A stretch of 64,000 nucleotides of DNA from contig OY720344.1 in assembly GCA_963082975.1 (NCBI GenBank), positions 27,067,172 to 27,131,171 of the forward strand. Reading direction: 5' to 3'. Position 1 is the stretch's first letter; each line of letters begins with the position of its first letter. This DNA comes from Labia minor (lineage: Eukaryota; Arthropoda; Insecta; Dermaptera; Spongiphoridae). The position numbers and the translations under genes are program-made. Below are positions 24,608-60,376 of the stretch, piece by piece. The notes under the pieces were generated by a model, which saw nothing but the letters and a program-made list of their open reading frames with translations, ran no database searches and was not told where the DNA came from.

Positions 24608-25218
24608 TTTACTATCTCGTAAGAGATAGTATTGCGATCACGAAAATTTTCGATGTTGAGATTTTGATGTTTTTATACGTTTTGAAGGTTCCTGAATCAT
24701 TTTCACTAAGGTTGAGAAAAATGTCTGTGTGTGTGTGTGTATGTGTGTGTGTGTATGTATGTAGACAAGATTACGCAAAAACGGTTTGAGCTAGAATGAT
24801 GAAATTTGGTACATGGACATTATTCAAAATTCATAGTTTTCTATCAACTTTTGAGAAATGTAGCTCAACCGGAAGAGGGTCATTACCTAAAACGTTTTGA
24901 TTTTTTTTCCTCTAAAGTGACCGTAAAAATAAAAATATATGTTTGATAATTTTTCACATGATTAATAATTGTATAAAACTGCTATATATAGAATTTCAGC
25001 TTGATTGAATTGCTGAAAGTACCAGAATTAATTTTTTAATACTGCAAATCTCACGCGCCAACACGTGCCATGGTGCCATCAATAAAAAGCCAAACATGCG
25101 CTGGTTTAATATTTATTATTTATAATTTATAATTAATTAAATTTAATTTAAATATAATATATTATGTTATTTAATCCAATTCAAATTGCGAGATAGTCGA
25201 GTGGAGACACTCCAGCTT
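24608..25218 (+). mobile_element. HINE-like element, family X, copy 1
   Basis: The 5' end actatctcgtaagagatagt (24611-24630) is itself a palindrome. A (TG)n core lies at about 24722-24765, followed by aaatttggtacatgg and aaccggaag. The 3' motif gcgagatagt (25188-25197) inverts the 5' motif, then comes hairpin tggagacactcca and gctt. This is the same plan as families Y and Z. Non-coding. Confidence 0.75.
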
Positions 25219-26127
25219 ATTATTTTTCAAAATGTTTGAATATTTTTACGATTTCATCTAGGATTAATAATTTTTTTTCAGAATAATATCCACACAAATA
25301 ATTTTTTTTTTTTTCAGCTAATTATTTCTCACTATCTTTTAATAATATGTATATAAGTTATGTAGATGGAGGAAAGTAATGGATGATATTTCAAAACAAT
25401 TTCAGAAGTATTTAAAGTATTTGGTAATTTCATTCCAAATCAATATTCGACCTTAAATTAAAATATTTATATATTAATAATTGATTCAAATTCTTATATT
25501 AAATATTTTATTTCATTTTTGAATATTTGAATTAAATTAATTAAAAAAAAAATAGATGATCTTATTTGATTCGTTTGTTAAGGAAGATAGTGGTCAGCAA
25601 AAGTAATGACCTGGTTGCCTCCACCTCCTGATTGATCCGGGATGATCTCGGTAACAGATTTATCTTCACGAATTAGTACAATTTGTTATACAGTCAACGG
25701 CTTACTGGATTTGTCTTAAGAACAATATATTTTCAACGCTATACTTCTTCTTTGATGAAGTGGTTAAATCAATTCGATTCGATAAGTACGTATTGTTTAA
25801 GATTATTTAAGATCTTTGATTTGGTCTATCATTTGTTATATTGTTTCTAGAAGACAACGGAAAAACCATATTTTTGAAATCAGAATATTCTGAAACGTGG
25901 AGATATGTGAAAAAAGCATATCCGAAATGTTTCGTGAATATAGATACTTTACTATCAAAAAACTAAAATTAGAAATTTTTTTATAGGTATAATGTATAAT
26001 ATCTTGATGTTGAGTATTTAATATTATATTGTAATATTCATTTATATAATATTTAGACACAAACAAATAAATAAATAAATTTAAAAATTAAAAAAAAAAA
26101 AGATTTCAATTTAAAGAATTACTTAAT
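25219..26127. other. AT-rich spacer
   Basis: AT-rich. The patch at about 25590-25700 is GC-richer but has no motif. The minus-strand frame at 25836-26066 is unremarkable. Confidence 0.5.
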
Positions 26128-26743
26128 TACTTTCCCGCATACTTCGTATAAGGGAAGTATTGGAATCGTCAAAAGTTTCGACTTCGAGATTTCGATAGGT
26201 CTTGACATTTTAGACCTCCCTGAGTCGGAAAATACCATTTTTCGAATTATGTCTGTGTGTGTGTATGTATGGATGTATGGATGTATGTAATGTTTGTCTG
26301 TGAGCAAATTTACTCAGAAACTAATCAAGCTAGGACTTCGAAATTTGGTACACCGATATTATTCACAGTTTGTAGATTTCTATCAAAATTTCGTCAAAAT
26401 CGGTTAACCGGAAGTGGTACTTTACCTACACTGGTTACGTTTACCTTTCAAGTAAGGTACCAGTTTGCTTCAAGATATTTGCTTCCTATTTTGTATATAG
26501 ATTTAAAAATATGAAAAAAATTCAGATACCAAATTTCATCATGATCTGACTACCGGAAGTGACATTTTACTTATACAAGTAGCGTTAGGTGTAAATTATA
26601 AATATATATAATAGTCTTAAACCATTTTACTTTATAATTTAAATTAATTAGTTTGTCTATTTTTATTGTTGTTAAAACATAATAATAATAACCTAATTAC
26701 CTATTTATATGCGGGAAAGTCTAGGGGAGGACACTCCCGCTTT
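26128..26743 (+). mobile_element. HINE-like element, family Y, copy 1
   Basis: Begins actttcccgcat (26129). A near-palindrome with aagggaagt follows, then a tgtgtgtatgtatggatg microsatellite (about 26252-26300), aaatttggtacacc and aaccggaagtggt. The 3' motif gcgggaaagt (26711-26720) is the inverted 5' motif, followed by hairpin ggggaggacactccc and gctt. The + frame at 26257-26514 is repeat sequence, not a gene. Confidence 0.75.
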
Positions 26744-26888
26744 TTTTTTAATGTTTTCTTAACGAACAGTTAATATCTTCTATTAAGTATATCTAATTAT
26801 TTGTTGTTGTTTTTATTATTATTGGAATTAAGTTCCATTTATTAATACTTGGCAGTTACTTAGAAAAATTGTAAATTTTATATTATTA

Positions 26889-27110
26889 ATAGTGTTAATG
26901 ACCGGGAGCTTAGCCGCGAGGTTATAGTGACCGGTCCGCCGACTCGAGTTCGAGTGTTCAAACCTCGCTGAGTGCATCGATATATAAATCGATATATATA
27001 TATATAAGTATAGATATAAGAATAATAAAGAAGGCTGGCTAAAATGGTGATAATCCGAAAGCCAAATAAATAAATAAAAAAAAAAAAAAAAAAAAATAGT
27101 GTTAATAACC
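26889..27110 (+). mobile_element. tRNA-derived SINE with target duplication
   Basis: The body spans 26904-27095. The head has an A-box-like tagccgcgaggt and a B-box-like gtgttcaaacc. A short tRNA-unrelated part and a (aaat)n/poly-A tail of about 20 As follow. The flanks 26889-26903 and 27096-27110 (atagtgttaatgacc) match with one difference, the duplication left by LINE-driven insertion. The long tail and good duplication suggest a young copy. Confidence 0.8.
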
Positions 27111-28502
27111 AATACTAAAATCTTTTTAATTATTAATAAAAATGAAATTAAAAATTTAAATTTAATTTAAAACAGTTTAATTTAATTGGTCAATTTATGA
27201 AATTGTATTTTGATTTTTTTTTATCTTACTTACCGATGAATCAGTTAAATTAACATTCAAAGAAAAAATCAAATTCTTAAGAATTGTGCTTCAATTATAT
27301 ATAATTGCCAATTAAATATATCTTTATATAAAAAAATGGATTAATATGAAAATATTTACAAATAATTAAAATATAAATAAATTTAACATTTGTTATTTTG
27401 AAACGGTTATTTTTTTTTTTTTTTGAGTTAATTAACTCACTGTATATAGTCATCTCAAGCTTTTTATATAAAAACCTTTTTGAATAAGTTTAGTTAAATA
27501 TTGTTGTATATTATAAAAAAATATATATCATATTTCGTTTATGTATATTGCATGATGTGCAAATTTTAATGGAGTCGTTTTCTTTAATAAAATCCTTTTC
27601 GGAATTTAGGAAAATAAAAATGAGCCTCTACTATAAAAAAAATCTGAAAACTATTAAACTGTAATTTCAAAAGTAATCAAATTAATTCCCATGAATAACG
27701 ATTCTTAAATTGCACTCCTCTGTTATAATGGTCACATATTATTGAAAAAAGTCCCCCGAAGTTTATATTATTCATAACATTTATCTTTATGATTTAGATG
27801 ATCATCGAGTCAGAAATTTATTGGAAACAATTAGTAAGTAATTATTAATAGAGGGCATTTTATTAAAGTTGGGTAGTTGTATTTAATTTTTTTTTCTAAA
27901 TGATTGATTTGTATATCCAATAAATATTTTTAATATAAAAATACAATATAATAATATGATGTTTAAATTAAATTATTTTTTTAAATAAAATAAATACTTT
28001 ATAAATAATTTATTTAATTAAATTAATTTAATGTAAAAATCATCAAACATACTTTTCATAAAATAAAATCAATATATTTAATTACTCTCCATGATAAATA
28101 TTCAATTAATAGGCTTTAAGAAAGAATTACTGTCAATATTTAAAAAATATATTTATTAATGAGAATAAATAATTGTAAAGGCATCTTCAACTTATGCAAC
28201 CAATTTAACATTTTAGATATTTTATAGATAATTTAAGGGGTATATATATATTTAATTATTATTATATTTAAGTCCCGGCCGGACGCATGGGAAGCGAGCG
28301 CCAGGTACATAGTCGCAGCTCGCACACTGGCTGCATCATAAGAATTAGGTATTTTGCTCGAGTTTAAAATTTTTAAATTCTTTATTTTTTCTTCCTCTGA
28401 ATTGATTTAACGCTGAGTGCTAGTATTCCATGAGTATAATTAGAAATATTACATATATCGATTTTTTAGTAAAATAATGTTTGTGTAGAAAGTATCAAAA
28501 AA
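27111..28502. other. AT-rich spacer with a GC patch
   Basis: AT-rich throughout except about 28272-28345, a 75-bp GC-rich patch (cccggccggacgcatgg) that is neither tRNA nor a known repeat by eye. Confidence 0.4.
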
Positions 28503-28746
28503 AAATACTTTGTAAACTACCACTTCAGGATATACACCAAAAGTTGATGAATTCATCCTACTGATGCTTTAAGTAAATAGGTATATCAAATTTTATCAAA
28601 AACCGTTGAGCAGTTCAAGCTACACGGACAGGCAAAAATACTTTATTCTGTTAACAAAATGCATGATTTGTGGAGATATGTAAAAATCTCCACATGTGAA
28701 AAAATTTGGTGTGAAAACAATACCTTCCCTTCCCATCGATCGGTAA
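28503..28746 (-). mobile_element. HINE-like element, family Z, partial
   Basis: Covers the 5' half of family Z in minus orientation, ending at the right with ccatcgatcggtaaaa. The microsatellite has shrunk to cacggacaggc. The 3' half and terminal hairpin are missing. Confidence 0.65.
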
Positions 28747-29094
28747 AAAAAAATTTCAAAGATATATTAATTATATTACAATAATATTTTATCAATATTC
28801 TTATTCTGACTTATATATGTGATATTCTTTTTAAATTTATTTATTTTTTTATTTTTATTTATATTTATCATTTGAAAAATAAATATGCTTCTTGAAAAAT
28901 CTCTTGAATAACTCTTAGAATGGTGCTCTTGACTGAAGCAATCAAATTTCTCCATCTCTATTCTTTAACTAATTATATTCTTTCCCCATTATTACGTAAT
29001 AATTTTCTTTTAAAAATTAAGATGGTTATAATTTGTGTTATTTAAAAAAATAAAATTGATCTTACCTAAATTAGTTAAAAAAGTAAATTTATAA
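28747..29094. other. AT-rich spacer
   Basis: No supportable feature. Confidence 0.5.
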
Positions 29095-29420
29095 TAAGTT
29101 GATTGTTTTCAATGCTACGCCTTTCAGAATAGATTCTCGTTTTGTTGGCAACTGACCACGTTCGTTTATTTCGTTAATTGTTGACAATCGTCGAGGACAG
29201 GACTCACCTCATATCCTGTCTTTTCCGCACTGGAAGCCGGGACTCCCGGCAAGGTCTTAGCCCATTCAAATCAATACGCGACCGCCGTCGCCGCACCCCT
29301 TTCTACCCAATTCGACCCACAAAACGCACAAGAAGACAAGACGGACCCAAGATAACCCCGCATTGTCACTTTAGCTAATGGAAGCCGAATACCTCGAATC
29401 CCTGAATCAAAACTTTATGT
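29095..29420 (+). other. GC/CpG-rich island, unknown
   Basis: One of the most GC-rich patches of the window, with many CG pairs. A 66-codon frame (29178-29378) is rich in Arg, Pro and Thr, as expected from composition. No family, splice site or repeat end identified. Candidates are a first exon, a regulatory block or an old transposon. Confidence 0.25.
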
Positions 29421-29737
29421 CCTAAAACCTTCAATGTTTACTTAAAATATATTGACTAAAAAAAAAATTCAAGCAGGGATAAAAGAGCTAACCAATCTAA
29501 ACGCCTGCGAGTGTGTTTACTTTTTTTCCACTAATAAATAGCTTTAAAAAAATAACTTTGTTGATAATGTAAAAAAGTGCTTTTTTATTTATTTATTTTA
29601 TTTAAAATAAATAAAAAAAATAATTGATTTTTAAAAAATAACTTGAAACTTTTAAAAAATAATATAAATTAAGAATTGAATTTTTCAAAATTAAACAAAT
29701 GAATAAAATTTAAGGATTATAATAATTATTTATGTAA
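29421..29737. other. AT-rich spacer
   Basis: No supportable feature. Confidence 0.5.
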
Positions 29738-30300
29738 TCTATATATATAAAAAAAGGTTTTTGTCTGCACATTGCTCAGAATTTAAAAATTTTTGCATAT
29801 CTTTGCGTTTCATGACCTCTAGAATCCAAAAGTGACTTTAGAATTTTTCATGTCTGTCTGTCTGTCGGTCTGTCTGTCCGGAAAATTACTATTTTATAGA
29901 CTCAGAATTGGCTGAACCGATTTCTTTGAAATTACATCACAATATTCTTATATACCTCTAGAGTAACATAGGCTATAAATTTTATTAATATCTTATCAAT
30001 AACCGCAGAAATTAATTTTTTAAAGTTTATATAAATCTCCGTGTTGTTCATTCAAGAGCAGCTCGCGGCTCACTGTCGGCCTAGCGGAATCATTTCAAAC
30101 AATGAATTATCATAGCGATTCCCAATCGAAGAATTATTATAATATTTCACTTTTCATTTTAAATTCTAATATACAAATATCAATTTAATTAAATAATTTA
30201 TTCTAAAAATTCTCAATTTAATTAAAATATTTATTAGATCATATTTTTATCTTAAATAATTTTTTATTTAATTGAATATTTCTTCTTTTCTATAATATAT
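29738..30300 (+). mobile_element. Helitron 5' region, 3' end not assigned
   Basis: TC after A 29737, then tatatatataaaaaaaggtt and gtctgcacattgctcag, as at 15337 and 30486. It has a gtctgtctgtctgtcggtc tract near 29850 and keeps about 350 bp that the 15-kb copy has lost. No CTAG end follows before the nested Helitron at 30486. The next compatible end is at 32826. Confidence 0.65.
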
Positions 30301-30485
30301 ATATATAATATATAATAATATATAAATTTTATCATTGAATAATAAAAAAAAAATATTATTTAGTATTTTATGAAGTGAAAATATATAAAAATTAAAATAT
30401 GATGATATAAAGTTATTTTAAATATTTGACATTTTTAAATTGGGTATATTTTTTAAATTTATTAAAATGTTTTTTATTATTATTA

Positions 30486-30803
30486 TCTATATATATAAAA
30501 AAAGGTTTTTGTCTGCACATTGCTCAGAATTTAAAATTTTTTGCAGACCTTTCATGATCTTTGGAAGCCAAAAGTGAGTTTAGAATTTTTTATATTTGTC
30601 TGTCTGACCGAAAAATTTTGACGTTAATTATATCACAGTATTCTTACATATCTCTATGAATGTTTTATGTAATATACTGATTGAAACAAAATGGATGAAA
30701 ACCTTTTACTACTGTCAAGCAAATACTATGTACCACTCGGGGGTACAGGGGGCGGAGCCCCCGTCTAGGTGTGAAGAGCGCCGAAGGCGCTCTGAGCAGC
30801 TAG
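30486..30803 (+). mobile_element. Complete short Helitron
   Basis: 318 bp. A at 30485, TC start, Helitron tail with cggggtacagggggcggagc, hairpin gagcgccgaaggcgctc, tgagcag, CTAG at 30800-30803 and T at 30804. All diagnostic features are present, with no coding capacity. It lies about 750 bp downstream of a second copy of the same 5' end. Confidence 0.9.
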
Positions 30804-30804
30804 T

Positions 30805-31389
30805 TTATTATATAAAAAATATATTTTTAAATTGAAATGTATTTTGCTGTTTTAGACAACACCGTATGTATATATATTAATATTATTAATTACCAAAAAC
30901 TAGAAATATTTATAATAAAAATCAACTCTTTTCTACAGTATTAGCGGCCTTTGTTGAAAAATGTACTAATAAACCTTTATAAACTACGATAGTATCAAAA
31001 CAAATGTGTCAATATTAAAAATTAATTAAATAATTATTACTATCATAAATACAAAGGCATTTTTATATAAAAATGTTAAAATACATTATATTATAGTTGG
31101 ATAGAACCAACTTGAATAAATTCCACTAAATAAAGTCACTACGTATTAGATGCATATATACGTCATAATTATAGAAAGTTGTTTTCTTTTTAATGGAATA
31201 ATTAAAAAATACATTTTCAGTTATTCATAAATCACTTTCGTCTAAGAAACGTGTTTCACCGCTCTTCTTTTTTAAAAAACGACCGTTTTTTATGCCTTAT
31301 AACAATACTAATAAAATTTAAATTAAACTGGCATCATAACCAAAAACTAACTAGTCTTTAATTCAAATGTATTTTTTGAATAAAAGAAA
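30805..31389. other. AT-rich spacer
   Basis: No supportable feature. Confidence 0.5.
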
Positions 31390-31445
31390 ACATTTTTATA
31401 ATTTGATCTAGACTAACGAAAAACGAAAAATGTGCTAATGGTTTT

Positions 31446-31990
31446 TTACCGACCGACGATAGGAAGGGAAGGTATTGTTTTCACACCAAATTTTACATGT
31501 GGAGATTTTTACATATTTTCACGAATCATGAATTTTGTTAACAGAAAAAAGTATTTTTGTCTGTCCGTCTGACCGTCTGTCTGACCGTCCGTCCATCTGT
31601 TCATTGTGTGTCTGAATTAAGGATGCTCTGTGGTCTGAATAGACGTGTACAGCTTGAACGGCTCAACGGATTTTGATAAAATTTGGTATATTTGCTTACT
31701 TCATCAACTTTGGATGTATATTCGAAAACCGGAAGTAGTAGTTTACAAAGTATTAATTTTATATTTGTTGCCCGGTAATTTTTCATTTAAAATATACAAA
31801 TAATTAATAATTGAGTAATTAAACTAAAAATAAATACCAAGATAATAAAATTTACATATTTTAATTCAAGTTTTACCAAAATATTTTTTTTTTTGATACT
31901 TTATTTATATATATATATATATATATAATGTTGTTTGGAAATTAATTTATTTCAAATCGTCGGTCGGTTCTGTGCCTGGCCACATCTCAT
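31446..31990 (+). mobile_element. HINE-like element, Z/F subfamily, full copy
   Basis: Starts ttttttaccgaccgacgata. Microsatellite of gtccgtctgaccgtctgtc type at about 31556-31605, then aaatttggtatat and aaccggaagtagt. The 3' motif cgtcggtcggt is at 31959-31969 and the terminal hairpin is degraded (tgtgcctggccaca). Its AT-rich 3' half matches the copy at 10.05-10.72 kb, which identifies that one as interrupted. The minus frame at 31601-31786 is repeat sequence. Confidence 0.75.
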
Positions 31991-32146
31991 TTTTATATTT
32001 AAGAATAACAAGACTTTATAAACTCCATCTTTGAGAAATCATTCGAAAATGAAAAGTGAGTCATTACTAATTGATAATTCTTCACAAAAATTTAATCTAT
32101 TAATTACAAAAAAAGAAGAGAATTTTTATTATAATTTATTATCCCA

Positions 32147-32262
32147 TTTTTATAATTTGATCTAGACTTTAGAGAAAAACGAAAAATGTGCTAATGGTTT
32201 TTTACCGACCGACGATAGGAAGGGAAGGTATGGTTTTCACACCAAATTTTACATGTGGAGAT
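32147..32262 (+). repeat. Duplicated flank plus HINE 5' end
   Basis: Repeats 31393-31505, including about 50 bp of unique-looking flank (gaaaaatgtgctaatgg) and the first 60 bp of the HINE. It is a local duplication about 755 bp downstream, not an independent insertion. It ends inside the HINE at acatgtggagattta, where Helitron/LINE sequence begins. Confidence 0.75.
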
Positions 32263-32826
32263 TTATTGGCCAAAGAAAGATGAGGACACAGGAGAATAGC
32301 TGCATAACGAGGAATTTCATGACCTCTATGCATCTCCAGAAATTGTTAGGGTTATAAAAGCGAAAAGGCTGCAATAGGCAGGGCACCTGACTAGAGTGGG
32401 AGAGGAAAAAGATATTGGTGGGGAGACCGATTGGAAAACGTCCGCTTGAAAGACTAAGGATGCATAGGAAGGGACGTAAGAGAGATGGGAGTGGGTAGGA
32501 GTTGGATGGATGTGGCTCAGGTTAGGGACACTTGGAGAAATGTGGTTGTTGCGGCCAATAACTTTCGAGTACCGTTGAGCCACAGAGAAAGATAGATATA
32601 ACATATACAATGATAATATATAATTAATTTACTGATTAAATTAAAATATATTTTAAATAAGAACACAAAAAGAAATGAATGTTTTATGTGATATGCTGAT
32701 TGAAACAAAATGGATGAAAACCTTTTACACACAGACTTTCAACCAAATACTATGTATCACTAGGGGGTACAGGAGAGGAGCCCCCGTCTAGGTGTGAAGA
32801 GCGCCGAAGGCGCTCTGAGCATCTAG
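32263..32826 (+). mobile_element. Helitron 3' part carrying LINE fragment
   Basis: Begins in LINE sequence (ttattggccaaagaaagatg) and passes the GHVARM-like and RPLGRPR-like coding region with deletions. It reaches the gatagata tail and the Helitron tail at about 32600, then hairpin gagcgccgaaggcgctc and CTAG at 32823-32826. The left edge joins a HINE fragment at a few bases of microhomology. No Helitron 5' end was found nearby. Confidence 0.75.
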
Positions 32827-33228
32827 TATTATAATATATTAATGATGGTTAAGCAACTTTCCTAGTAATAATGGTTTATTTTTACTGATCATATAGAGAG
32901 AGCAAAAAAAGGCAAGTTTTTTTGTTAAAAAAGGCTGTAAAAAGGCTATTTTTTCAAAAATTTTCCAAAAAATATTGTATTTTTATAGATAAATAGTTTC
33001 TTTTATTAGCTTATGTTAGCAAAATAGTATTTAAACATTAACAAATTTTACTTATATTAACGAATATAAAATAATTTTTAAAAGAAAAATATTATAATAA
33101 GAAAGGAAAGAAATTTGAATTCTTAATTTTTATAAAACATATATACTGAGAAAAAGTAACAAAAAGTAATAAAAAGGCATTTTATTTATAAATATATTTT
33201 TACTTTATTATTATTTTATGAAATAAAA
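32827..33228. other. AT-rich spacer
   Basis: AT-rich, with many aaaaagg words between 32905 and 33185. No gene. Confidence 0.45.
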
Positions 33229-33230
33229 TA

Positions 33231-34300: not shown

Positions 34301-34302
34301 TA

Positions 34303-36395: not shown

Positions 36396-36399
36396 ACAT

Positions 36400-36660
36400 C
36401 AAAATAGGTATTTATTTGTGAGGTAATTTATTCGTTGGAGACAAATCTCTTTCCGCCAAGCCATTTCTTCAGGTATGGAAACAAGAAATAGTCCCTTGGG
36501 GATAAATTCGGAGAATAGGGCGGATGAAGGAACGATTCGTATCCCAATTCATGGATTTTCATGGAAATTCACTTTTTTCTTCTCAAATCACGATGTAGCT
36601 ATTAATGGATGTTAACAAAAACTAAAAGACCCAGCTGGTTCAAATTTCGACAGGGGTCAT
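36400..36660 (-). mobile_element. mariner transposase C-terminal fragment
   Basis: The minus strand gives ESFLHPPYSPNLSPRDYFLF and then PYLKKWLGGKRFVSNE before a stop: the region of the third catalytic residue, where the expected Asp in YSPDLAP reads Asn, though the later Asp (PRDYFLF) is kept. It differs from the 33-kb element and the 10-kb relic, so it is a third mariner lineage. Ends not found; right-hand sequence to about 36740 may belong to it. Confidence 0.75.
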
Positions 36661-36760
36661 CTAATAGTTGCCTGCTGACAGGAGTAGTGTTACCATTTCA
36701 TTTAAGAGACGGGAAATTCAAAAAGCTACGGACTTATTGACCTATTGATATGATAATAAT

Positions 36761-40499: not shown

Positions 40500-40502
40500 G
40501 TG

Positions 40503-40742: not shown

Positions 40743-40758
40743 TTATATATACACCCTT

Positions 40759-41291: not shown

Positions 41292-41294
<3 letters not shown>

Positions 41295-42000: not shown

Positions 42001-42506
42001 ATATCTGGAGTGTTTCCATTCAACTATCTCACAAATTTGAATTGAATAATCAAGCTTTTTTCTATATTTGGAAATTAATTAAAATTTTTTTCTAAGCGAT
42101 CATAGGATTTAAGGTTTTTGACATAATTTTCATTAAAATAAGAAGGCATTCAAATAATATCGTATATAATTATTAATTTAATTAATGAATATTTTTTAAT
42201 TATGTGAAAAACTATATATATCTTTATTTTTAAGTTCAGTTTAGAGGGAAAAAATGAAAACGTGGTAGGTATTGGTCCTCTTCCGAATGAGCTACATTTC
42301 TCAAAAGTTGATAGAAAACTACGAATTTTGAATAATGCCCGTGTGCCAAATTTCATTATTCTAGCTCAAACGGTTTTTGCATAATCTTGTCTACATACAC
42401 ACACCCTTTTTTTTCAACCTTAGTGAAAATAACTCAAGGGCTTTCAAAACATGTAAAAGCATCAAAATTTTGGTGATCGCAATACTATCTCTTGCGATAT
42501 AGTTAA
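42001..42506 (-). mobile_element. HINE-like element, family X, copy 2
   Basis: Minus orientation: the 5' end ctatctcttgcgatatagtt lies at about 42485-42505 and the 3' end ctggagtgtttccattcaac at 42005. The (TG)n core has collapsed to a short acacaccc run near 42400. About 100 bp near the 3' end is replaced by other AT-rich sequence. Confidence 0.65.
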
Positions 42507-42779
42507 AAGATAAACAAATAAACTAAAATAAAAGTAAAATACAAAGAATTTATTAACAAAATATCGTAAGAGAATGTTCTACAAAGAAATGGCCTCTTTT
42601 AAAATAATAATCAAAAATAGTATTCATTCTCGAATCCACCACTAGAGGCACAATCCATTATTGCCTAATTTTAATTTTAAATTTACATCTACATATTAAA
42701 CAATAAATTATTTAGAATAACAAAATACAAAAAATTGATATTTTGATATTTAACAGTTTCTATAAGGTATATTGTATTA
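42507..42779. other. AT-rich spacer
   Basis: No supportable feature. Confidence 0.45.
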
Positions 42780-45205: not shown

Positions 45206-45215
45206 GTTTTCTTAC

Positions 45216-45335: not shown

Positions 45336-45379
45336 ACCGGGAGTCAATTCCGCACAGAAATCAACCCTCAATCACTCAC

Positions 45380-47779: not shown

Positions 47780-48110
47780 TTGTCCTGTTTCTTGTAACTC
47801 TTCAAGAGTTGTTTCTCTGTGGGCGGCATAGATCCCTTGGGTTACCGCGATTCATCCTCTATACGTCTATAGCACCACTCTTTACGAGTTAATTGCAATT
47901 AAACATGCCTTAATTAGTGAAAGCCTATGGAGGGAGCAGCTCCCCAAAGGGAAACTCCGTCATAAGAAATGCTTTTTGAACCTATTTAACGACTTGGTGA
48001 AGAGCACAACTAAGATTTTGTTTCCTCCCGCTTTACAATGAATGCTAGGAAGCGAGAGATTGTTTACCAAAGCTTCTCTCCAAGGTTCCTTCAATTAAAA
48101 ACTTTTTTCT
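47780..48110. other. GC-richer island, unknown
   Basis: About 330 bp of balanced composition, with stops in all frames at short intervals. No recognised repeat. It may be a non-coding exon, regulatory DNA or an old insertion. Confidence 0.2.
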
Positions 48111-48840
48111 TTAAGGTATTAATATATATACAGTTATAATCTTTAGAGTTTTTTTTTCATATTAAAATAAAATTAACATTCATATTATTTTTTTGACATT
48201 CCTTATTTTTGTAAATATATATTGTACATATATACAAATATTAATTTTTTATTTTTAAAAAATTTGAAATTTTAGGAGACCATTAATGATTAATGTAATT
48301 TTGTAAGAATTCTCAATAAGTTCAATTATAATTTTTTATTTTGTATAATATAAATAAATAATAATCTTATATACATTATATGTTGTGTATAATCATATGC
48401 ATACGCGGAATTTGCAATCTTTCAATAACTCAGGGGAAGAGAAGAATTGAAGATTTTCACCAATTATACTAAAGCGTTCCTTTCCTTCTTCAAAATACTT
48501 TCCGTAACAACGTATCTCTTGAAAAGGCTTATTATCCCAAAGATACTCAGTAGTTTATTGTACTTATCAAGATATTCCACCACTTTGTAGATTAGATATT
48601 AAAAAAAAATATCGAACGTTTTTCGCCTCATTTGAGAGGTATTATAAACGATATGGGAAACAATTTCATTTTGAAAAGATCTAATTTGCTGATCTTTGAT
48701 TCTCTACAACCTCAATGATATAATTAATATTCTATAATTATAAACGATAAAATTTAAAAACATATATTTTATTTGAAATAATTGTCAATGCAATCGAATT
48801 TTATATTGATCAAAAATCATCAGTGGATTAAATAAAAAAT
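48111..48840. other. AT-rich spacer
   Basis: AT-rich, with a moderately GC patch at about 48400-48720 lacking motifs. Confidence 0.45.
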
Positions 48841-49494
48841 AAGTTGACCTGTGGCCAGGTCCGAACCGACCGACGGTTTGAAGTAAATTAATTTCCAGCT
48901 ACAGAAACAATTTCAAATAATTTTAATATATCTATTAATGTAATAAAAATAGATATGGATACATAAATAATAAATATAAACATTTTTAATTTTATTTTAT
49001 TTATAATATATATGCAAGACCAGGCTGTGACGTCATGAATGGCTGGGTGACGTCATATAATTTTAAATCAAGAAAAAACTAATAAATATGATTTTTCTCG
49101 AGGATAAAACCAAAACAAAGTGCATTATATATTCGTGGTTATATATAAAAAATCTCCTCATGTGAAATTTGGTATGAAAATAACCCTTCCTATCGTCGAT
49201 CGCTAATACTACGACTTCCGGTTTCCGGATTTGCACCAAAAGTTGATCAATTCATCCCACTGATGCATTAAGTAAATATACCAAATTTCATCAAAATCCG
49301 TTGAGCCGTTCAGGCTGTACACATCTATACGGACGGACAGACGGACAGACGGATAGACGGACGGACAGACATCATGCTAAAAATACTTTTTTCTGTTTAG
49401 AAAATGCATGATTCGTGGAGATATGTAAAAATTTCCACATGTGAAATTTGGTGTGAAAACAATACCTCCCTTACTATTCGTCGGTCGGTAAAAA
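48841..49494 (-). mobile_element. HINE-like element, family Z, copy B
   Basis: Near full copy in minus orientation. The 3' end is at the left: perfect hairpin gacctgtggccaggtc (48845-48860) and accgaccgacgg. The GGAC/GACG microsatellite lies at about 49330-49368. The 5' end is at the right, at tcgtcggtcggtaaaaat. Two gtgacgtcat-like words flank aatggctgg in the 3' half. Confidence 0.78.
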
Positions 49495-50003
49495 TGTAAT
49501 TTCTAATGAGTTATTACTGATTTAATTAGAATAGTAATATAGATAGGTTAAGTGGTAATTATCTGATACCCTATATATTAGTATTTCAATGCCCATACCT
49601 ACACATTGAATAGACGTAAGTGAGTTGATAATAGACAATTTCAATTTAGTTACAACATTGAATCCCACTTAACTTGTGATTGATACTTTCATAAACCATA
49701 CAAAATTTTTAGTAATTAGAAGAAAATTCAATTAATATTATTATATAAAATTGATTTCATGTGAAAGTACATAATAACATTATGAATGAATTAAATAAAT
49801 GCCCAAAGCGAAATAATATATTTTATACACGAGTAATCTCACCTAAATAGCAAAACAAATTTTATATTACCACAGATATTTCTCGATTCAATTTGCTAGT
49901 GAATTTTGAAGTATTTTTTATTTTATTTATTTACGATTACTTTGATTTAGGTTTTTTCCATATCAAATAGTTATGATTAATATGTTTTATCTAGTATAAA
50001 AAT
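49495..50003. other. AT-rich spacer
   Basis: No supportable feature. Confidence 0.5.
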
Positions 50004-50508
50004 AATCTGGATTGTCTCCACTCGACTATCTAGGAAATTTGAATTGGATTAATTAACATATATTATATTTAAATTAAATTATAAAATAAAATAATAATAA
50101 TATTTATTAAACCAATGCGTTTTTGGCTCTTTGTTGATGGCACCAAGTCACGTGCTGGCGCGTTATTGTGAGTCAACCTGTTAAAAAATCAATTCTGGTA
50201 CTGTCAACGATTCAATCAAGCTGAAATTTTATATATAGCAGTTTTATACAATTTTTAATCATGTGAAAAACTATCAAACATATATCTTTATTTTTACGGT
50301 AGTTTTGAATAACACCCGTGTACCAAATTTCATTATTCTAGCTCAAACCGTTTTTGCGTAATCTTGTCTACATATACTCACAAACACACAGACATTTTTC
50401 TCAACCTTAGTGAAAATGTCTCAGGGACCTTCAAAATGTATAAAAACATCAAAATTTCGACATCGAAAATTTTCGTGATCACAATACTATCTGTGGCGAG
50501 ATGGTAAA
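50004..50508 (-). mobile_element. HINE-like element, family X, copy 3
   Basis: Minus orientation. The 3' end tctggattgtctccactcga is at the left and the 5' end ctatctgtggcgagatggta at about 50488-50507. A deletion of about 80-100 bp next to 50300 removes the aaccggaag block. The microsatellite is an acacacag remnant. Confidence 0.7.
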
Positions 50509-52740
50509 AATCAAAAAATATTAGAGAATTTTTTTTTAAATGTATAATTTTATTTCCTCAACTAATTTTATTTTTCTTATGAATAGTATTTACTTAAAAA
50601 AATTAATTAATTTAATGATATTTTAAAGATGATTTAATAAATAAAACTTTTATAAAGGTCTTTAATTTTCAATTTTAATTAAATGGTTTCATTAATATAT
50701 AAATATATATGAATTCATAAAACCATACATCTTGACTTGAAGTGAACCTGTCACTGCATCATTTATGAAGCTAAGAAAACTTAATAAGGATTGAATTACT
50801 ACAAGGGGAAATAAGAAAGTTGTCATCACTTGTCACACACTTTTCATCTTATACTCACAACCTTTTATTTTTTATTTTTTTTTTAAATAAAAATTATAGA
50901 AAAAAAATATTAACCATACTCGTCCTTTGTGGTCTTCATAATAAGTAGTAAGCTATATCTTTTGAAATATTTAAATCAAGTTGGACTCCCACTTACTTCA
51001 AGTGATTTAAATATTACTGTCCTGTATCTAATTGCATATCCAAATAGAGATAAAGAAATGGCAATGAAAACAAAGAATAGAATAGAATTAGACATGAAAA
51101 GGAGTGAAAATTTCAAATATACATAATATTTAACTAAAAACTGATTACGAACAAGATCCGACTAAATACATTTGTCATTAATGTAAAGTTATCTTAGTCT
51201 GATGGAATTTTAAAGAGGGGATCATATCATATCGAAATGTGCCGAGCTTTAATTTTTTGAATTAACTAACTTCTTGAGTAAAAAGAAAAGACGAGGACGA
51301 AGCTCAACAAAGAGGGATTGCCTCTATAATCATACTGAAATTTACAATTCAAATCGGATAAATAATATAGCACGATTTTAATATTATAATTTCTTCTTTC
51401 CAACTTTTTAAGAACAGTGTAATCATCGAGAATTGGTTCTTATTCTTTGAAGCCATTTTTCCAACTGTAATGAAAAAAAATGGTCCTACATTGAGATGAA
51501 TGGAAAAATTCTTTTTCAATAATAATTATTTTAAATTAAAGTTTTTTTTTTTTTTTATTTTAGATTAAATTTTTCTAATTTGATTGAATAATGTCTTTTA
51601 TCATTGATAATTTATTCATTATTATTGATTTGGTGGTTTGTTTTAAATTTAATTCATAATGATGATATCTAATTAAGATTTTTGCATCATTAAATAGTAT
51701 TTTCTTATTAAATCGAGTGTTTTATTTCATTCAACACTTTCTTCTTTAATAATAAATAATATATATATAAAAAAAATACAAGAAACAAATACAAAATATA
51801 CCTTTAAACTTTTTCCACTCCGGATAATTAAATATAAATTATATTCTAAACCAGTTTTTTTTTATCAAGGATTTTACAAAAGGCTAAGAAATATTATCAC
51901 CGAAGAAGATGAGAAAAAAAATCGAACATTAAAAAAAAAACATGGGTTATTGATTGCTTTTAGCTTAGGATGTGTGTGTGTGTGACAAAATAAATGTCTT
52001 GAAGGTATTATTCCTTGAGAATAAAAATGTCTTATTATTAATATTAATATTGTCTTTATTTATATACAAATTAAAGAATATAAATTAAATATTAATAACA
52101 TAAATAACATTAATTTGAGAGATTTCTCCTATTTAGAATATTAATTAAAAATATAAAAATTTCTTATAATCTTTGAAGTCATTCCTTCAAAAATTTTGAT
52201 AGCTCAACAAGCCAGGTGGTGTGTTCTGTAAATTGTTAATATATGTAGAAATGTTTCACGTTTTTCACTGGTCCATTCTGTATATTCGTTTCCCAAAAAT
52301 AGCAACTGATTTTAGAAAATTTGAAATTTATTTTTTATTATTAAAAAAATTTCCTAATAAATATATTGAAAAAAATTATATTTTACAAAAAAGTTAGAAA
52401 TCAATATATAATATATTGTACAATTAGACTTAAGACGTTATGAAATGAAATATAAGTATTGAAAAGATTTGTGTCCTTAATTTAAATTAAAATTTAATCG
52501 ATTTGTTTCTATTGTCCATTTAAAACTTCATAAATTAATTTTTTATGTGAAAAGAGACTACAATAATAATTATGGTTGCTCTTGAAAATAGGTTATGGAA
52601 ATTTCCTGAAACTTTTTACTATCCCAAATAAATAAAATATACTTATCATTTAAAGAAAACTTCTAAGATCCTTTGAGATTTTGTCTTTTTTATAAATTTA
52701 TCTTACATAACAATTTTTCAAAATTATAAATTATAAGGTT
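50509..52740. other. AT-rich spacer
   Basis: About 2.2 kb, AT-rich. The + frame at 50929-51126 and the moderately GC patch at 51180-51330 have no motif or splice context. A tgtgtgtgtg run lies at 51970. Confidence 0.45.
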
Positions 52741-53041
52741 ATTATATAAAAAGGAGGCAGCTAGCCGAGAGTGTAGTATAGCAATTTTCTACACAAGAAG
52801 TCGGCGTTCAATTCCAACTAAGAACAAATTTTTCTAATAAAATTCAATTTAATATCAGCTGCCTCCGGCTCCAGGAACTGTCAGTTCTTGGTTCTATACA
52901 TGCGGAAGGCAACGGGAAACCACCGCAATAACATTCTCAAGAAAAATTATCGTGGCTGGGCAGCTTCTAAGGCTAACCTAGTCATGATTATAGCCAAACT
53001 CCGAAAGGGAGACGGCACCTTAAGAAGAAGATTATATAAAA
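52741..53041 (+). mobile_element. tRNA-derived SINE with target duplication
   Basis: The body spans about 52752-53030. The head carries tagccgagagtg (A-box-like) and ggcgttcaattcc (B-box-like) 32 bases apart. The centre has gcggaaggcaacgggaaacc, which looks like a conserved SINE core, and the tail ends in aagaagaag rather than poly-A. Perfect 11-bp duplication attatataaaa at 52741-52751 and 53031-53041. The 81-codon frame here (52888-53133) is SINE sequence, not a gene. Confidence 0.8.
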
Positions 53042-53559
53042 TTATTATATACAATCAAAGTTCAATTATGAATATTATTTATTTAAAAAAAAAAATAGAA
53101 ACATTTAAAAATATTATGTTTAATTTTATTTAAATTCTTTTATAGTTTAGAAATTTAGGGTTTCTGACAGATGGTTTAAGGGTGTTGTTTTCCCTTTAAA
53201 TAATTTATAAAATGAATAAAATTATAAAAATTATTATATAAAAATTATAATTAAATATCTGCTATCTATATGTTTGATTTACTAAAGTTCTTTTTTAAAT
53301 TTTCATCAAATTTAATAGATATAATAAAATAAAAATAATTTTTAATTCAATTCAATTGTGTATATCATTTTATTAAATACAGAATCAAATAAAGTAATCA
53401 ATATTAAAATTGAAAATTGTTTGATTTTTGTTTATTTTTGTTTATAGAGATTTATAATAATATATCTATATTTATATTGGGTTAAGAGATGATTCTTTTT
53501 AAAAGGATAGACACTTTCAATGAGTTTCTAAGTCTCATTTAAAAAAGATAAGTGAAGAA
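53042..53559. other. AT-rich spacer
   Basis: No supportable feature. Confidence 0.5.
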
Positions 53560-54010
53560 AAATAAGTAAGTTAAAGGGAGAAAATGAAAAAAAGGCAATA
53601 TGCAACGAGTCTTATGATTGGAATTAATATTTCCGATTGGAAGTACATTAGGGCGTAACGTGAAGGAACATGTGGTGCAGATGCGCTGAAGATGATTGAA
53701 TAGCGGCCGAATCGATCCTTTCGCCTTTCAAGTTCTCCGATAGAAACGGCTACGTACACGCGCATACATTACCATACGGAAACAGCGATTTTATCACGTT
53801 CAAATTAAACTCCGATCAAAGAGCAGGCGGACGCATTTAAATTTGTTGAATATTTACACGCGCGTCCCGTCCCTATGCGTTTTCGACTATCATCACCAAC
53901 TGAATTGGGCCCCCGTTAATGGGTGGTTTCCATCCAACCCCCTCTCACCCCCCACCCCCTTCAACAAGAGAGAATGAGAGCTAGAGAGACGGATTCTGCT
54001 CATTTTCACC
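53560..54010. promoter_or_regulatory. CpG-richer island, possible regulatory DNA
   Basis: About 450 bp with many CG pairs (gcggccgaatcgatcc, acacgcgcgtcccgtcc) and a C-rich tract at about 53936-53961. All frames are interrupted, so a coding exon is unlikely. It is the strongest non-coding, non-repeat island here. Function inferred from composition only. Confidence 0.25.
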
Positions 54011-55013
54011 AATCGATCTGTATGTCGCATTATTTTTAAAAGAAAATGTATCATCGTTTGATCCCTTGCTATACATCAGTAACAAAATTGTTTTAATCGA
54101 ATTGGAATTTTGTTTAAATTTTTGTTTGTGAATGCCGTTTTAGCAATTATAAATGATCCGATAACATGTTTTAATTGGTTCCCGAAACAAATTTAAATTA
54201 GTTTCAAATTATACAGTGTTAGGAAATTAGAAAGATTTTTTGTTTCACTCATCTAATTATAACCTACACAAAAATCGAATTGTTTCATTACAATTGACTA
54301 GAAAGCTTTATTCCAACATTTAATTAATAATAGCATTTTTTTTTATATTAATTAAATCACTTAGCTATAGTTTGAAAAACATTTCCACTCTTAGATATAA
54401 ACAATCGTTGTTTGGTTTTGGACATGGCTGTTTTTTTTTTTTGTTTTTTTTTTTTTTGAACCTTTCTTCATTGATCACAAGATTCAATTAGAAGATGAAT
54501 AGATAGATGAAAAGAGAATGAGTGAGAGCGATGGAGAGCGAAAACAAACATGAGATAATTTTCATTAAAGAAAAATCTCATCTTATAAATTCTTTATTTA
54601 TCGGAAAGGTATTAATTTTAATGAAAATAAATAAATACCTTAATAATGATGAATGAAGAAGTTTGTGGTCCACATATTCTGTTTTATAAAAAGAAAAAAA
54701 AATACTGAAATTACGTTGAGAATGACACCCAAAAGAGATTTCAAGTAAATCTCCCTTAAGGTACCAAAATAAAAAGAATATTCTTAAAATGCTCTCTGGA
54801 GAGGTGTTGCTGAGAGGATTTTTGGATAATTCAATGAGGATGAAATAAAAAAATGATAAATCCTTTTGAATGCGGTCTACCATATTTTCGAGGTAGCACT
54901 AAAATAAAACTTGATAGTTTATGATTTTAAATGTTAAAAACAGACAAAAACATTCCACCAATTAGATAATACGGTTATGATGTTTGTAAAAAAATACAAA
55001 ATTATAACAAAAT
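54011..55013. other. AT-rich spacer
   Basis: AT-rich. The 101-codon minus frame at 54578-54883 (PIS-poor, Phe/Ser-rich) has no recognised motif or exon signals and is not called. Confidence 0.4.
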
Positions 55014-55157
55014 AAGCGGGAGTGTCCTCCCCTAGACTTTCCCGCATATAAATAGGTATAAAGAGTTGTGAATGAATATTTAGAATGTGTAAACTTGGTA
55101 TTGATAAAGAGCCAGTTCGTATTAGTTTATTGGTGTCAAATTTGATATTTGGTAACA

Positions 55158-55188
<31 letters not shown>

Positions 55189-55214
55189 TAAAGTGCTACT
55201 TCCGGTTAACTGAT

Positions 55215-55736
55215 ATTTTAAATGTAAAAAAAACAGATATGGATATAATATAAATATTTTTAATTTTATTTTATTTATAATATATAAGGGCTGGCTGTGA
55301 CGTCATGAAGTGCTGGGTGACGTCATATAATTTTAAATTAAGAAAAAACTAATGAAGATGATTTTTCTCGTGGATAAAACCAATACAAAGTGCATAACAC
55401 GTGGAGATATGTCCTCACGTGAAATTTGATATGAAAATAACCCTTCACTTCCTCTCTTCGATCGGCAATACTAGCACTTCCGGTTTCCGGATTTGCACCA
55501 AAAGTTGATCAATTCATCCTACTGATGAATTAAGTAAATATACCAAATTTCATCAAAATCCTTTGAGCCGTTCAGGCTGTACACATCTATACGGACGGAC
55601 GGACGGACAGACATCATGCTAAAAATACTTTTTTCTGTTAAGAAAATGCATGATTCGTGGAGATATGTACCTAAATATCCATAGGTGAAATTTGGTGTGA
55701 AAACAATACCTCCCTTACTATCGTCGGTCGGTAAAA
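55215..55736 (-). mobile_element. HINE-like element, family Z, copy D, nested
   Basis: Minus orientation; the 5' end tatcgtcggtcggtaaaaaa is at the right. The GGAC microsatellite lies at about 55593-55612. It lacks the terminal hairpin and 3' motif, so its left end is truncated. It lies inside family Y sequence. Confidence 0.72.
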
Positions 55737-56032
55737 AAGAAACGCTACTTGTATAGGTAAAATGTCACTTCCGGTAGTCAGAACATGATGAAATTTGGTA
55801 TCTCAATTTTTTTCATATTTTTAAATCTATATACAAAATATGAAGCAAATATCTCGAAGCAAACTGGTACTTTACTTGAAAGGTAAACGCAACCAGTGTA
55901 GGTAAAGTACCACTTCTGGTTAACCGATTTTGACGAAATTTTGATAGAAATCTACAAACTGTGAATAATATCGGTGTACCAAATTTCGAAGTCCTAGCTT
56001 GATTAGTTTTTGAGTAAATTTGCTTACAGACA

Positions 56033-56033
<1 letters not shown>

Positions 56034-56063
<30 letters not shown>

Positions 56064-56080
56064 CATACATACACACACAC
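56034..56080. repeat. (CATA)n microsatellite in HINE core
   Basis: About 11 catA units, then acacacac; this is the variable core of the family Y element. Confidence 0.9.
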
Positions 56081-56407
56081 AGACATAATTCGAAAAATGG
56101 TATTTTCCGACTCAGGGAGGTCTAAAACGTCAAGATCTATTGAAATCTCGAAGTCGAAATTTTTGACGATTCCAATAAAGCCCTTATACGAAGTATGCGG
56201 GAAAGTAAATATATATCTTTTGAAATTTATCTAAAAAATATTATTTATTTTACTAAACAAAAAAAAAATCTAAAATAAAACTTACAATATTATATTCATA
56301 TATTCTATCCTCAAAGAAATATCTGAAAATAATTTATTTTAAATACTTAATTTTAATTTTTCCTCTTACATATTGGTAAGAGTTAATAAATTAAGGTGAT
56401 TCATTTT

Positions 56408-57024
56408 TACTATCTCGTGAGAGATAGTATTGCGATCACGAAAATTTTCAATGTTGAGATTTTGATGTTTTTATATGTTTAGGTTCCTGAATCATTTTTA
56501 CTAAGGTTGAGAAAAATGTCTGTGTGTGTATCTGTGTGTGTGTGTGTGTATGTATGTATGTAACCAAGATTACGCAAAAACGGTTTGAGCTAGAATGATG
56601 AAATTTGGTACATGGGCATTATTCAAAATTCATAGTTTTCTATAAACTTTTGAGAAATGTAGCTCAACCGGAAGAGGGTCATTACTTACAACGTTTTGAT
56701 TTTTTTCCTCTAAAGTGACCGTAAAAATAAAGATATATGTTTGATAATTTTTCACATGATTAATAATTGTATAAAACTGCTATATATAGAATTTCAGCTT
56801 GATTGATTCGCTGAAATTACCAGAATTAATTTTTTAACACTGCAAATCTCACGCGCCAACATGTGACGTGGTGCCATCAACAAAGAGCCAAATATGTGCT
56901 GGTTTAATAAATATTATTTATTAATTTTAATTTATAATTTAATTAATTAAATTTAATTTAAATATAATATATGTTATTTAATCCAATTTAAATTTGCGAA
57001 ATAGTCGAGTGAAGACACTCCAGA
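56408..57024 (+). mobile_element. HINE-like element, family X, copy 4
   Basis: The 5' end actatctcgtgagagatagt is at 56409-56428. (TG)n core at about 56518-56562, then aaatttggtacatggg and aaccggaag. The 3' motif gcgaaatagt is followed by a slightly mismatched hairpin tgaagacactcca. About 90% similar by eye to the 24.6-kb copy along its whole length. Confidence 0.78.
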
Positions 57025-57629
57025 TAATTTTACAATGAAAAGGAGGACAAAATGGTTATGAAAAATCTTTAAAAACTTTAAAATGACAAAACTAAACCGG
57101 CTTTTTCGGTTATTTAATTTTATTACATAAATTAGAGATTAATCAATGTATATAATAATAATAAATTAATATGTGTAAATTATTTTTTAATTTAAATAAA
57201 GTAATTAATAAATAAATATTATTATTATTATTATTATTATTATTTTAATTTAAATGGCAAAGATTTGAATGAAGATATTTTATTATATTTTGGCGATGGA
57301 ATATTTCCGAGTGTACTATATAAAGTACATATTGAAGGTTGCCAAGATTTGTTCTTTGTTCATCTGCAAACGTTTCAGTAAAGGAAAAGATTCCCGCAAC
57401 CCTATATAAAAAAATAAAAGTATTTTTTTTTTATATTTATTCATTCAAAGAAAAGTAAAAGAGGATGGATTATGTGCAAAACCAAAATTCTTATACGAAA
57501 TAGGTAGAAAGATTAATGCTTCCATTTAATTCAAAAGAAATGCCCTAATCACATTTATTGTAAAAAAGTATTAAAATCGAAATAATTAAGTATTAAGAAA
57601 TATTTTTAGGGCCATAATGATGTTGTATT

Positions 57630-58258
57630 TTATCTATCTATCTCTGTGGCCCTACGGAACTCGAAAGTTCTTGGCCGCAGCAGCCACACTTCTCCAAGTG
57701 TCCCTATTCTGAGCCACAACCCTAAAAACCCTATCCTCTCCCATCTCTCTCACGTCCCTTCATAGATTATCCACCCACCACGTCCTTGGTCTTCCAAGCG
57801 GGAGTTTCCCACTCCGTCTTCCGCCCTCTACATATTTTCGCCATTCTTTCCTCTCCCATTCTAGCCACATGTCCTGCCCACCGAAGCCTTCTCGATTTTA
57901 TAATTCTAATTATATCTGGAGATGCATAGAGGTCATGCAATTCCTCGTTATGCAGTATCCGCTATTCCCCGGTGACCTCATCTTTCTTTGGCCCATAAAT
58001 GCTTCGCAGAATCCTATTCTCAAATACTCTAAATCTACTTCGTCACCTAAGGTCATAGACCATGCCTCACACCCATATAATACAACCGGTAAAATAATTG
58101 TTTTATATATTTTAATTTTTATCCCCTTTGATAATAATTTTGATGAGATAAGCCTCTTTACTGCATAATATCAGGCGTTTCCCGATTGTAAACTAGCTTT
58201 AAACTCTTCTCGAATATTATTATCTTTCGTTATTACAGAACCTAATTATTTAAATTTA
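57630..58258 (-). mobile_element. LINE 3' fragment, independent insertion
   Basis: The 3' tail is at the left: tatctatctatctctgtggc, that is (gata)n after gagccacagag. On the minus strand, words such as LGSVITKDNNIREE and FDDEVDL-type RT residues, VTGE, and GHVARM-like residues lie in several frames. There is no Helitron tail, so this shows the LINE's own end. 5'-truncated; no clean target duplication seen. Confidence 0.75.
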
Positions 58259-58427
58259 AATTTTCTTCAGGGGGGAGGGGGGTAAGGAGCTGTTTTGTTC
58301 ATTTAGGATCTATTTTCAGCACTAAAAAAATAATTAAATTTTAGCTTCTAAAGATGATTGACAATAAAAATGAAATATGTAACAAAGAAATGATACATTT
58401 TTAAACAAAATTTATATCTCACAATTA

Positions 58428-58516
58428 TATATATATATTTATATTTATTTATATAGATATATATATATATATATAGGTATATATATATATGGGTATATAT
58501 ATATATATAGGTATAT
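58428..58516. repeat. TA-rich variable repeat with ggta interruptions
   Basis: TA repeats broken by regularly spaced gg/ggg, about every 16-20 bases (aggtatatatatatatgggt), suggesting a higher-order unit. It lies inside the long-TIR element. Confidence 0.8.
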
Positions 58517-58707
58517 ACCATTAAATTATAATTTGTATATTGTTTTCAACTAAATTCAATTAATTAATTATTTTATTTGGATTGAAAAATAATTTACACA
58601 TTTTTATTCATAAAATATTTATATTCATCTCTATAATTTATGTTATAAAAATTGAATAATCTAAAAAGCCGGTTTACTTTTGCCATTTTAAAGTTTTTAA
58701 AGATTTT

Positions 58708-59657
58708 GTATTTCAATTAAATGTAATTTATTTTTAAATTATTAATTACAATTATTAAAATGCATGTACGAATATATATTTTTATAATCGGATGTCAAAA
58801 AGTTATTAGTGGGATGCTCGTATATATTTATAATTGATGGCTATTTTGATTTGAAAAAATACAATTTAAGCGGATTAAATGTAAATAATCGAATATACCG
58901 GACCACTACAGAATGGTTAACTATATAAGCTGCTTTAGACTACACAATTTAATTATCAGACAGTTCAATTTAAAAAATCTACTTGTAAGATAGTAAATAT
59001 TAATTTCTTTTTTTAAGGTATGCTATAAATAAACTTCATTAGCTATAATATAATAGAAGTTTTACTCGGATAAACGCCTATTTAATTTCCACTTTTATAT
59101 AATCCTCAGTTTAGATGAAAGTCTCATAACTTAAAAACCACCTAGAGGCTCTAGCAAGATAAGGAGGCGCTTATACGTACACGTATGCAAATATGTCACG
59201 TTTTATATGTATAAGAAAAAATATACATTTAAAAAATTTAATAACAAAAATTTTATAATCTGCTTGATTAATATCTGTTTTTATTTTATTTTAAGATAAT
59301 AACAAATTGTTAGATTGAAAATTCAATTAGAAAAACATATTACTTATTCAAATGTAGAGAAAATAGGAATGGTATATCAAAAAATTAAAATATAAAATAG
59401 TAAAAAAAAAAATAATAATGTGTCCAATAAGTATGATATTAGGAAGATGTTTAAAAGTAACCAACCAATTGGTATAGAATTTATTTAATTACTTTTTGCT
59501 ATTTTGCCATTAATTACTATTCAATCTGTTTTATTAATTTTTATAATTAATTTTAACTTTATTGGAATTATCTATCAATTTTAGAAATTTATACCTATAG
59601 TATTAAATTAAAATATTTATATATTAAGAATTATTTTTAAACTCTATAAAGTCTAAA
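58708..59657. other. AT-rich spacer
   Basis: Includes the weak core-promoter-like arrangement listed separately. Otherwise AT-rich without a gene. Confidence 0.45.
58921..58962 (+). promoter_or_regulatory. Possible TATA plus initiator
   Basis: ctatataagc at 58921-58930 and an arthropod-like initiator tatcaga about 33 bases downstream (58954-58960) have the right order and spacing. A ttgtaag donor-like word follows at 58983. No open frame lies downstream, and in AT-rich DNA TATA words are common, so this is tentative. Confidence 0.2.
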
Positions 59658-59735
59658 GGTTCCCAAACTTTTTTGTGTCATAGACCCCTTGCCATGTTTT
59701 TCGGTTTTGAGTAGATCCTCTAAATTGATTTTGAT

Positions 59736-60376
59736 TTTTACCGACCGACGATAGTAAGGGAGGTATTGTTTTCACACCAAATTTCACATGTGGAGATTTT
59801 TACATATCTCCACGAATCATGCATTTTCTAAACAGAAAAAAGTATTTTTAGCATGATGTCTGTCCGTCTGTCCGTCCGTCCGTCTGTCCGTCCGTATAGA
59901 TGTGTACAGCCTGAACGGCTCAACCGATTTTGATGAAATTTGGTATATTTACTTAATGCATCAGTGGGATGAATTGATCAACTTTTGGTGCAATTCCGGA
60001 AACCGGAAGTGGTAGTATTAGCGATCGACGATAGGAAGGAAAGGGTTATTTTCACACCAAAGGAGATTTTTTTATATATCACCACGAATCATGCATTTTG
60101 TATTGGTTTTATCCTCGAAAAAAATCATATTTATTAGTTTTTTCTTGATTTAAAATTATATGACGTCATCCAGCCATGCATGACTTCACAGCCTGGTCTT
60201 GCATATATATTATAAATAAAATAAAATTAAAAATGTTTATATTTATTATTTATGTATCCATATCTGTTTTTTATTACATTAATAGATATATGAAAATTAT
60301 TTGAAATTGTTTCTGTAGCTGGAAATTAATTTATTTCAAACCGTCGGTCGGTTCGGACCTGGCCACAGGTCAACTT
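59736..60376 (+). mobile_element. HINE-like element, family Z, copy C (best)
   Basis: The best-preserved + copy. It starts ttttaccgaccgacgatag (59737), with a gtctgtccgtccgtccg microsatellite at about 59857-59895, then aaatttggtatat and aaccggaagtggtag. The 3' motif cgtcggtcggt is at 60342-60352, the perfect hairpin gacctggccacaggtc at 60356-60371, then aactt. It is a good reference for family Z. Confidence 0.8.

Follow-up and report, generated by a model that had tools for sequence, protein, structure and literature searches.

HINE-like families in the window

The analysed window, a 64,000-nucleotide stretch of the Labia minor genome (assembly GCA_963082975.1, contig OY720344.1, positions 27,067,172 to 27,131,171 of the forward strand), carries copies of three short repeat families, X, Y and Z, whose organization resembles that of HINEs, the deletion derivatives of Helentron transposons. 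A blastn comparison within the window disclosed four copies of X, two of Y and no fewer than five longer ones of Z, as well as fragments; together the families cover about 6.35 of the 64 kb (summed by hand from these matches). The three motifs that mark the family ends are much more frequent in the window than chance would give. Because the longest stop-to-stop frame anywhere in the window is only 162 aa, the X, Y and Z copies in it are non-coding.

The plan proposed in the first-pass annotation is readable in full-length elements of all families: X at 24606..25221, Y at 26127..26745 and Z at 59735..60379, all on the plus strand. A 5' motif, a short word and a microsatellite are followed by core boxes, after which the 5' motif recurs inverted close to a 3' hairpin and a CTT-type tail. 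In X (the copy L001 of the genomic sample below), a T-run (24606-24610) precedes the 5' subterminal inverted repeat (subTIR) ACTATCTCG, whose palindromic arm is GAGATAGT (together 24611..24630, plus strand). The inverted ACTATCTCG is located at 25189..25197 (minus strand), the hairpin tggag-aca-ctcca at 25202..25214 (plus strand), and CTTATT at 25216-25221. The other X copies of the window are 76-94% identical to this one: a copy of 91% identity at 56404..57029 (plus strand), an internally deleted one at 49998..50510 (minus strand), and a partial, diverged one (76%) at 42193..42509 (minus strand).

In the full-length Y, the subTIR ACTTTCCCGC occupies 26129..26138 (plus strand) and its 3' counterpart 26711..26720 (minus strand). 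The other Y element, Y2 (55011..56211, minus strand), combines a Y 5' part, an internal Z copy and a 3' part resembling the longer Y-Helentron described below. Further Z copies are found at 48837..49495 (93%, minus strand) and 6338..6942 (87%, minus strand), and a diverged Z-like copy (77% in its 5' part) at 31443..31984 (plus strand). Near the latter, about 50 bp of host flank together with the first 66 bp of Z is duplicated (31391-31508 and 32145-32264, about 750 bp apart, 95.8%), which could be due to slippage or segmental duplication.

Terminal motifs and the common core

As claimed in the first-pass annotation, each family repeats its 5' motif in inverted orientation close to the 3' end, and the two vary together. 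Pairing each 5' motif with the 3' motif of its own family gave scores of 9 (X), 10 (Y) and 11 (Z), all full matches, compared with 0-4 for pairs across families. The inverted motif extends over 9-10 bp in X, 13 bp in Y (by eye) and 11 bp in Z. The word following the 5' motif of X is its perfect palindromic arm (DNA fold z -8.15); the arm is weaker in Y (z -1.92), and in Z it folds no better than shuffled sequences (z -0.05). Arm scores against the family's own motif are accordingly graded (9 in X, 7 in Y, 3 in Z), and the Z arm fits the Y motif better. Hairpin stems at the 3' end, also noted earlier, can be read in all three families, but only in X and Z do they agree with the predicted fold, equalled by 11/200 shuffles in X and by none of 200 in Z (z -3.78). 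For the Y stem gggag/ctccc (26725..26738, plus strand) the predicted minimum-energy fold is a different one.

The apparent unrelatedness of the three families did not hold. Cores following the microsatellite (112, 119 and 113 bp in X, Y and Z; microsatellite excluded) were compared with 1000 dinucleotide shuffles, and gave local scores of 58 (X-Y), 31 (X-Z) and 23 (Y-Z), equalled in 0, 0 and 7 shuffles. Blocks 5' of the microsatellite scored 36, 28 and 23 in the same order, equalled in 0, 3 and 13 of 1000. Trimming the cores at the common AACCGGAAG is a choice that raises their scores; the X-Y match is also detected without it (E 7e-17, blastn in the window). Homology in both segments indicates that the hidden architecture is one of shared descent, with the strongest tie between X and Y.

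Boundaries and insertion sites of X copies

The X copies were drawn from the best 40 of 2290 first-look candidates in the genome, and the sample therefore represents the most alike copies, not a random set. Flanks were obtained for 27 copies and both ends were located in 24, with three (L079, L082, L083) dropped. In the 5' flank, T is present at -5, -4, -2 and -1 in 24/24 copies and at -3 in 22/24, so that AC is preceded by TTTTT, or by TTATT in two copies; this corresponds to the T-rich insertion sites expected of such elements. The 3' end is CT(T/A)ATT in all 24, with variable bases beyond. Ends of the window copies of Y and Z are similar, with a T-run and CTT-type tails. Target duplications, named beforehand as evidence against a HINE plan, were not found beyond chance in the 24 copies: flank matches averaged 1.54 nt versus 1.27 in shuffled pairings, equalled by 24/200. 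In the sequences examined, matches that span an insertion site were limited to element ends and weak AT-rich hits. One X copy stands head to tail behind another (L069), and one directly behind a Y 3' end (L002). When viral contigs were searched with two of the end motifs, each gave one match, with no flanking element seen (for L010, within 3800-5600 only).

Longer elements sharing the X, Y and Z ends

The X ends are found 12.2 kb apart on contig C1 (47862604-47874782, minus strand), flanking an uninterrupted 2181-aa frame. This X-Helentron provides the autonomous partner with the same termini that the first-pass annotation had named as support. Its 5' end corresponds to X 2-503 at 92.9% and includes one repetition of X 294-530; its 3' end corresponds to X 575-617 at 97.7%. 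A HINE copy, L080, has a variant 5' loop and a 3' tail in common with it. Three Pfam families match the X protein over cut-off, PF14214, PIF1 and DUF6570. The Rep domain (PF14214, 84.6 bits, cut-off 28.9) carries the RGSPHxH signature as RVEFQMRGSPHEH, and YVLKYVSK, which we take to be the two-tyrosine motif, while the PIF1-type superfamily 1 helicase (PF05970, 109.8 bits, cut-off 25.9) is accompanied by GSAGVGKS, presumably its Walker A motif. QNINSL, GDFN and YHKP follow one another in the X protein, the last two also being present in the Y and Z proteins; we assume them to be the endonuclease motif set. The last 420 aa match Exo_endo_phos_2 (PF14529) below cut-off (E 2.6e-4, 21.3 bits, cut-off 27.4), a family named as the endonuclease of Helentrons (Thomas et al., PMC4067079). 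Single-sequence structure prediction of this segment was uninformative on an endonuclease (mean pLDDT, a per-residue confidence score, of 31).

The same 420 aa match Peptidase_C48 below the Pfam cut-off (E 0.0039), and the C-terminal part matches a SENP8 chain in PDB (E 0.013). Judged from sequence, the X protein may include a deconjugase of Ulp1/SENP type, which would add a third kind of protease to the OTU and VTD of other Helentrons; among the papers listed in the literature searches, no title or abstract opening names a C48/Ulp1 domain in a Helentron.

Two broken X-Helentron copies were also found, one on C10 with both X ends (80.6% at the 5' end, 89.8% at the 3' end), and one at C1:44694181-44700650 with the X 3' end (97.7%), for which a search for the X 5' end gave no result. 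A Z match in the 5' region of the X-Helentron was considered as a nested Z HINE and rejected: it extends about 1.2 kb beyond the HINE-matched part and equals the 5' untranslated region of the Z-Helentron, and is therefore a Z-Helentron fragment inside the X-Helentron.

On the Y side, Y 8-556 is matched at 92.8% at C1:44706632-44706098, followed directly by a broken Helentron protein with 57-60% identity to the X protein; its C-terminal part was sought and not found. This Y-Helentron contains the broken X-Helentron copy at C1:44694181-44700650, and roughly 1 kb past the 3' end of that copy comes a Y 3' end (95.9%). Y2 is similar to it at 91% in the 5' part and at 97-98% in the last 200 bp, which an insertion divides in the genome copy; on this similarity we regard Y2 as derived from a Y-Helentron by deletion. 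A 1489-aa frame at C2:66557900-66562045, considered as the partner of another family, proved to be a truncated Z-Helentron copy (98-99% DNA identity over common parts).

The 5' end of each family stands before a different sibling Helentron protein, and the main matches between these proteins, in Rep and helicase, are 55-67% alike. Starting from the 5' end, the match between short and long element extends to 530 bp in X, 556 bp in Y and 543 bp in Z, a notable similarity to which each family contributed one or two long copies.

Other mobile elements

A PF14214 search of the Labia minor genome gave 104 Rep matches. Among 30 loci examined, RGSPHxH, the Helentron signature (Thomas et al. 2014, PMC4067079), is present in 4, GLPHxH, typical of Helitrons, in 24 (one as QGLPH), and neither in 2. 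A Helentron lineage termed A (L036-L039, L041-L046) and C1:85855789 both have RGSPHxH, and the stretches retrieved for them yielded no subTIR pair of X, Y or Z type. Lineage A (RGSPHIH in L036-L039, L041 and L042) was probably active recently, since stretches between copies are 99.7-99.9% identical and long open frames are present. Its 5' end is located near TTTTACCACGTTTTT, and its 3' end was not found; an inverted-word search yielded no convincing pair of ends for other Helentrons. One lineage-A copy is adjoined by a Z copy (L043), and another bears a 4.5 kb insertion (L042 4516-9078) whose flanks overlap by 7 bp, resembling a target duplication, and which has a 699-aa frame on the opposite strand. 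Seven loci with equal Rep score and RGLPHMH (L017-L023) represent a canonical-type Helitron in copies very similar by score and motif; in most of them the frame is about 1652 aa long. Five consecutive Rep-bearing units of equal score, spaced 5.7-9.8 kb, resemble a tandem array (C5:46739897-46771612).

Within the window, a separate repeat family is found at 30486-30809, from 29738 on, and at 3012-3161, 16900-17001, 32743-32844 and 63770-63871. It starts with TCTATATATA, contains the stretch GTCTGTCTG and ends in GAGCGCCgaaGGCGCTCTGAGCAGCTAG before T; by eye, it looks like a canonical non-autonomous Helitron. Segment 33273-34260 resembles, also by eye, a broken mariner transposase.

Interpretation and alternatives

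The common plan, the paired ends, the lack of target duplication beyond chance in X and the Helentron partners support the HINE reading of the first-pass annotation, and X, Y and Z can be considered HINEs of three sibling Helentrons, instances of a class of mobile DNA that is already known. Each family has one or both ends in common with its own longer sibling. Following the family literature and the anatomy of the elements, X, Y and Z would be transferred by a rolling-circle mechanism, with termination at the 3' hairpin, and their ends would be recognised by their own Helentron protein. A more extended scenario is put forward tentatively, as possible rather than probable: three sibling lineages persist in one genome, ends diverged with proteins, HINEs formed by nearly the same internal deletion (530, 556 and 543 bp), and the X protein perhaps carries an Ulp1/SENP deconjugase. 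If so, the 5' half-kilobase with its microsatellite and core boxes would be a functional cis unit, and lineage-specific end recognition would drive diversification. Since each of the three coexisting families can be linked to a sibling Helentron, in one case with an uninterrupted protein, discrimination between own and sibling ends could be tested within one genome.

It is also conceivable, if rather unlikely, that one Helentron protein moves all three families and the end motifs are not determinants of specificity. The common core, the shared T-runs and CTT-type tails and the similarity of the proteins are in line with this, and that of X is the sole partner found with an uninterrupted frame and both ends, that of Y being broken. 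On the other hand, a different sibling protein follows each 5' end, and end motifs that match within a family differ strongly between families.

Explanations outside Helentrons fare worse than the HINE reading. Canonical Helitrons, with 5' TC, 3' CTRR and an A|T target, are suggested by the frequency of GLPHxH-type Rep loci in the genome, but are very improbable given TTTTTAC and CTTATT-like ends with subTIRs (24 X copies; Y and Z in the window), and given proteins with RGSPHEH and endonuclease-like motifs behind the X, Y and Z ends. Short elements with inverted motifs at both ends also recall miniature inverted-repeat transposable elements (MITEs) of a DDE transposon with subterminal repeats, as DINE-1 was first described (PMC2374699). 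We give this origin hardly any credence: target duplication in the 24 X copies does not exceed chance, the 3' motif is set back from the end by about 34 nt, and the long X-ended copy encodes Rep and helicase, with no DDE transposase among its Pfam matches. The high copy number (2290 first-look X candidates, 40 scored) would suit SINE-like retroelements, the most improbable origin of all, as the 3' end is a fixed CT(T/A)ATT without a variable A-tail, target duplications are lacking beyond chance, and the ends are shared with a Rep/helicase element.

Comparison with known systems

HINEs and Helentrons as described by Thomas, Vadnagara and Pritham (2014, PMC4067079) share with X, Y and Z subterminal inverted repeats that lie a few nt behind the 5' end, often palindromic in the published families and clearly so here in X. 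Also shared are a 3' palindrome, readable as a stem in all three families, T-run ends, T-rich and unmodified targets, microsatellites, and an origin as deletion derivatives of RGSPHxH elements with Rep, helicase and, putatively in ours, endonuclease. Among the differences, the subTIRs of our elements read ACTATCTCG, ACTTTCCCGC and ACCGACCGACG. The family rule of at least 11 identical bp given there holds for Y and Z, whereas X has 9, or 10 by eye in the X-Helentron. By eye, about 34-38 nt separate the 3' subTIR from the end, compared with 38-60 nt in the mite, and the X protein differs in ending in the stretch with the below-cut-off C48/Ulp1-like match. An additional cysteine-protease-like stretch is likewise present in deubiquitinase Helentrons, for which OTU and VTD domains are already in print (PMC9741609), while that of the X protein is C48/Ulp1-like and below cut-off.

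DINE-1-like repeats were earlier filed as MITEs (PMC4067079). Z has a GTCY-type microsatellite and so recalls the (GTCY)n "MITEs" that Coates et al. (2011) reported from Lepidoptera. The published plan of DINE-1 comprises a subTIR, an adjacent inverted repeat, a GTCY microsatellite, TT preference and a 3' stem-loop with changing stems (PMC2374699; for HINEs, PMC4067079). Compared with DINE-1 of Drosophila, the microsatellites of X and Y are GT-rich instead of GTCY, and three variants stand side by side in a single genome, every one of them linked to its sibling Helentron.
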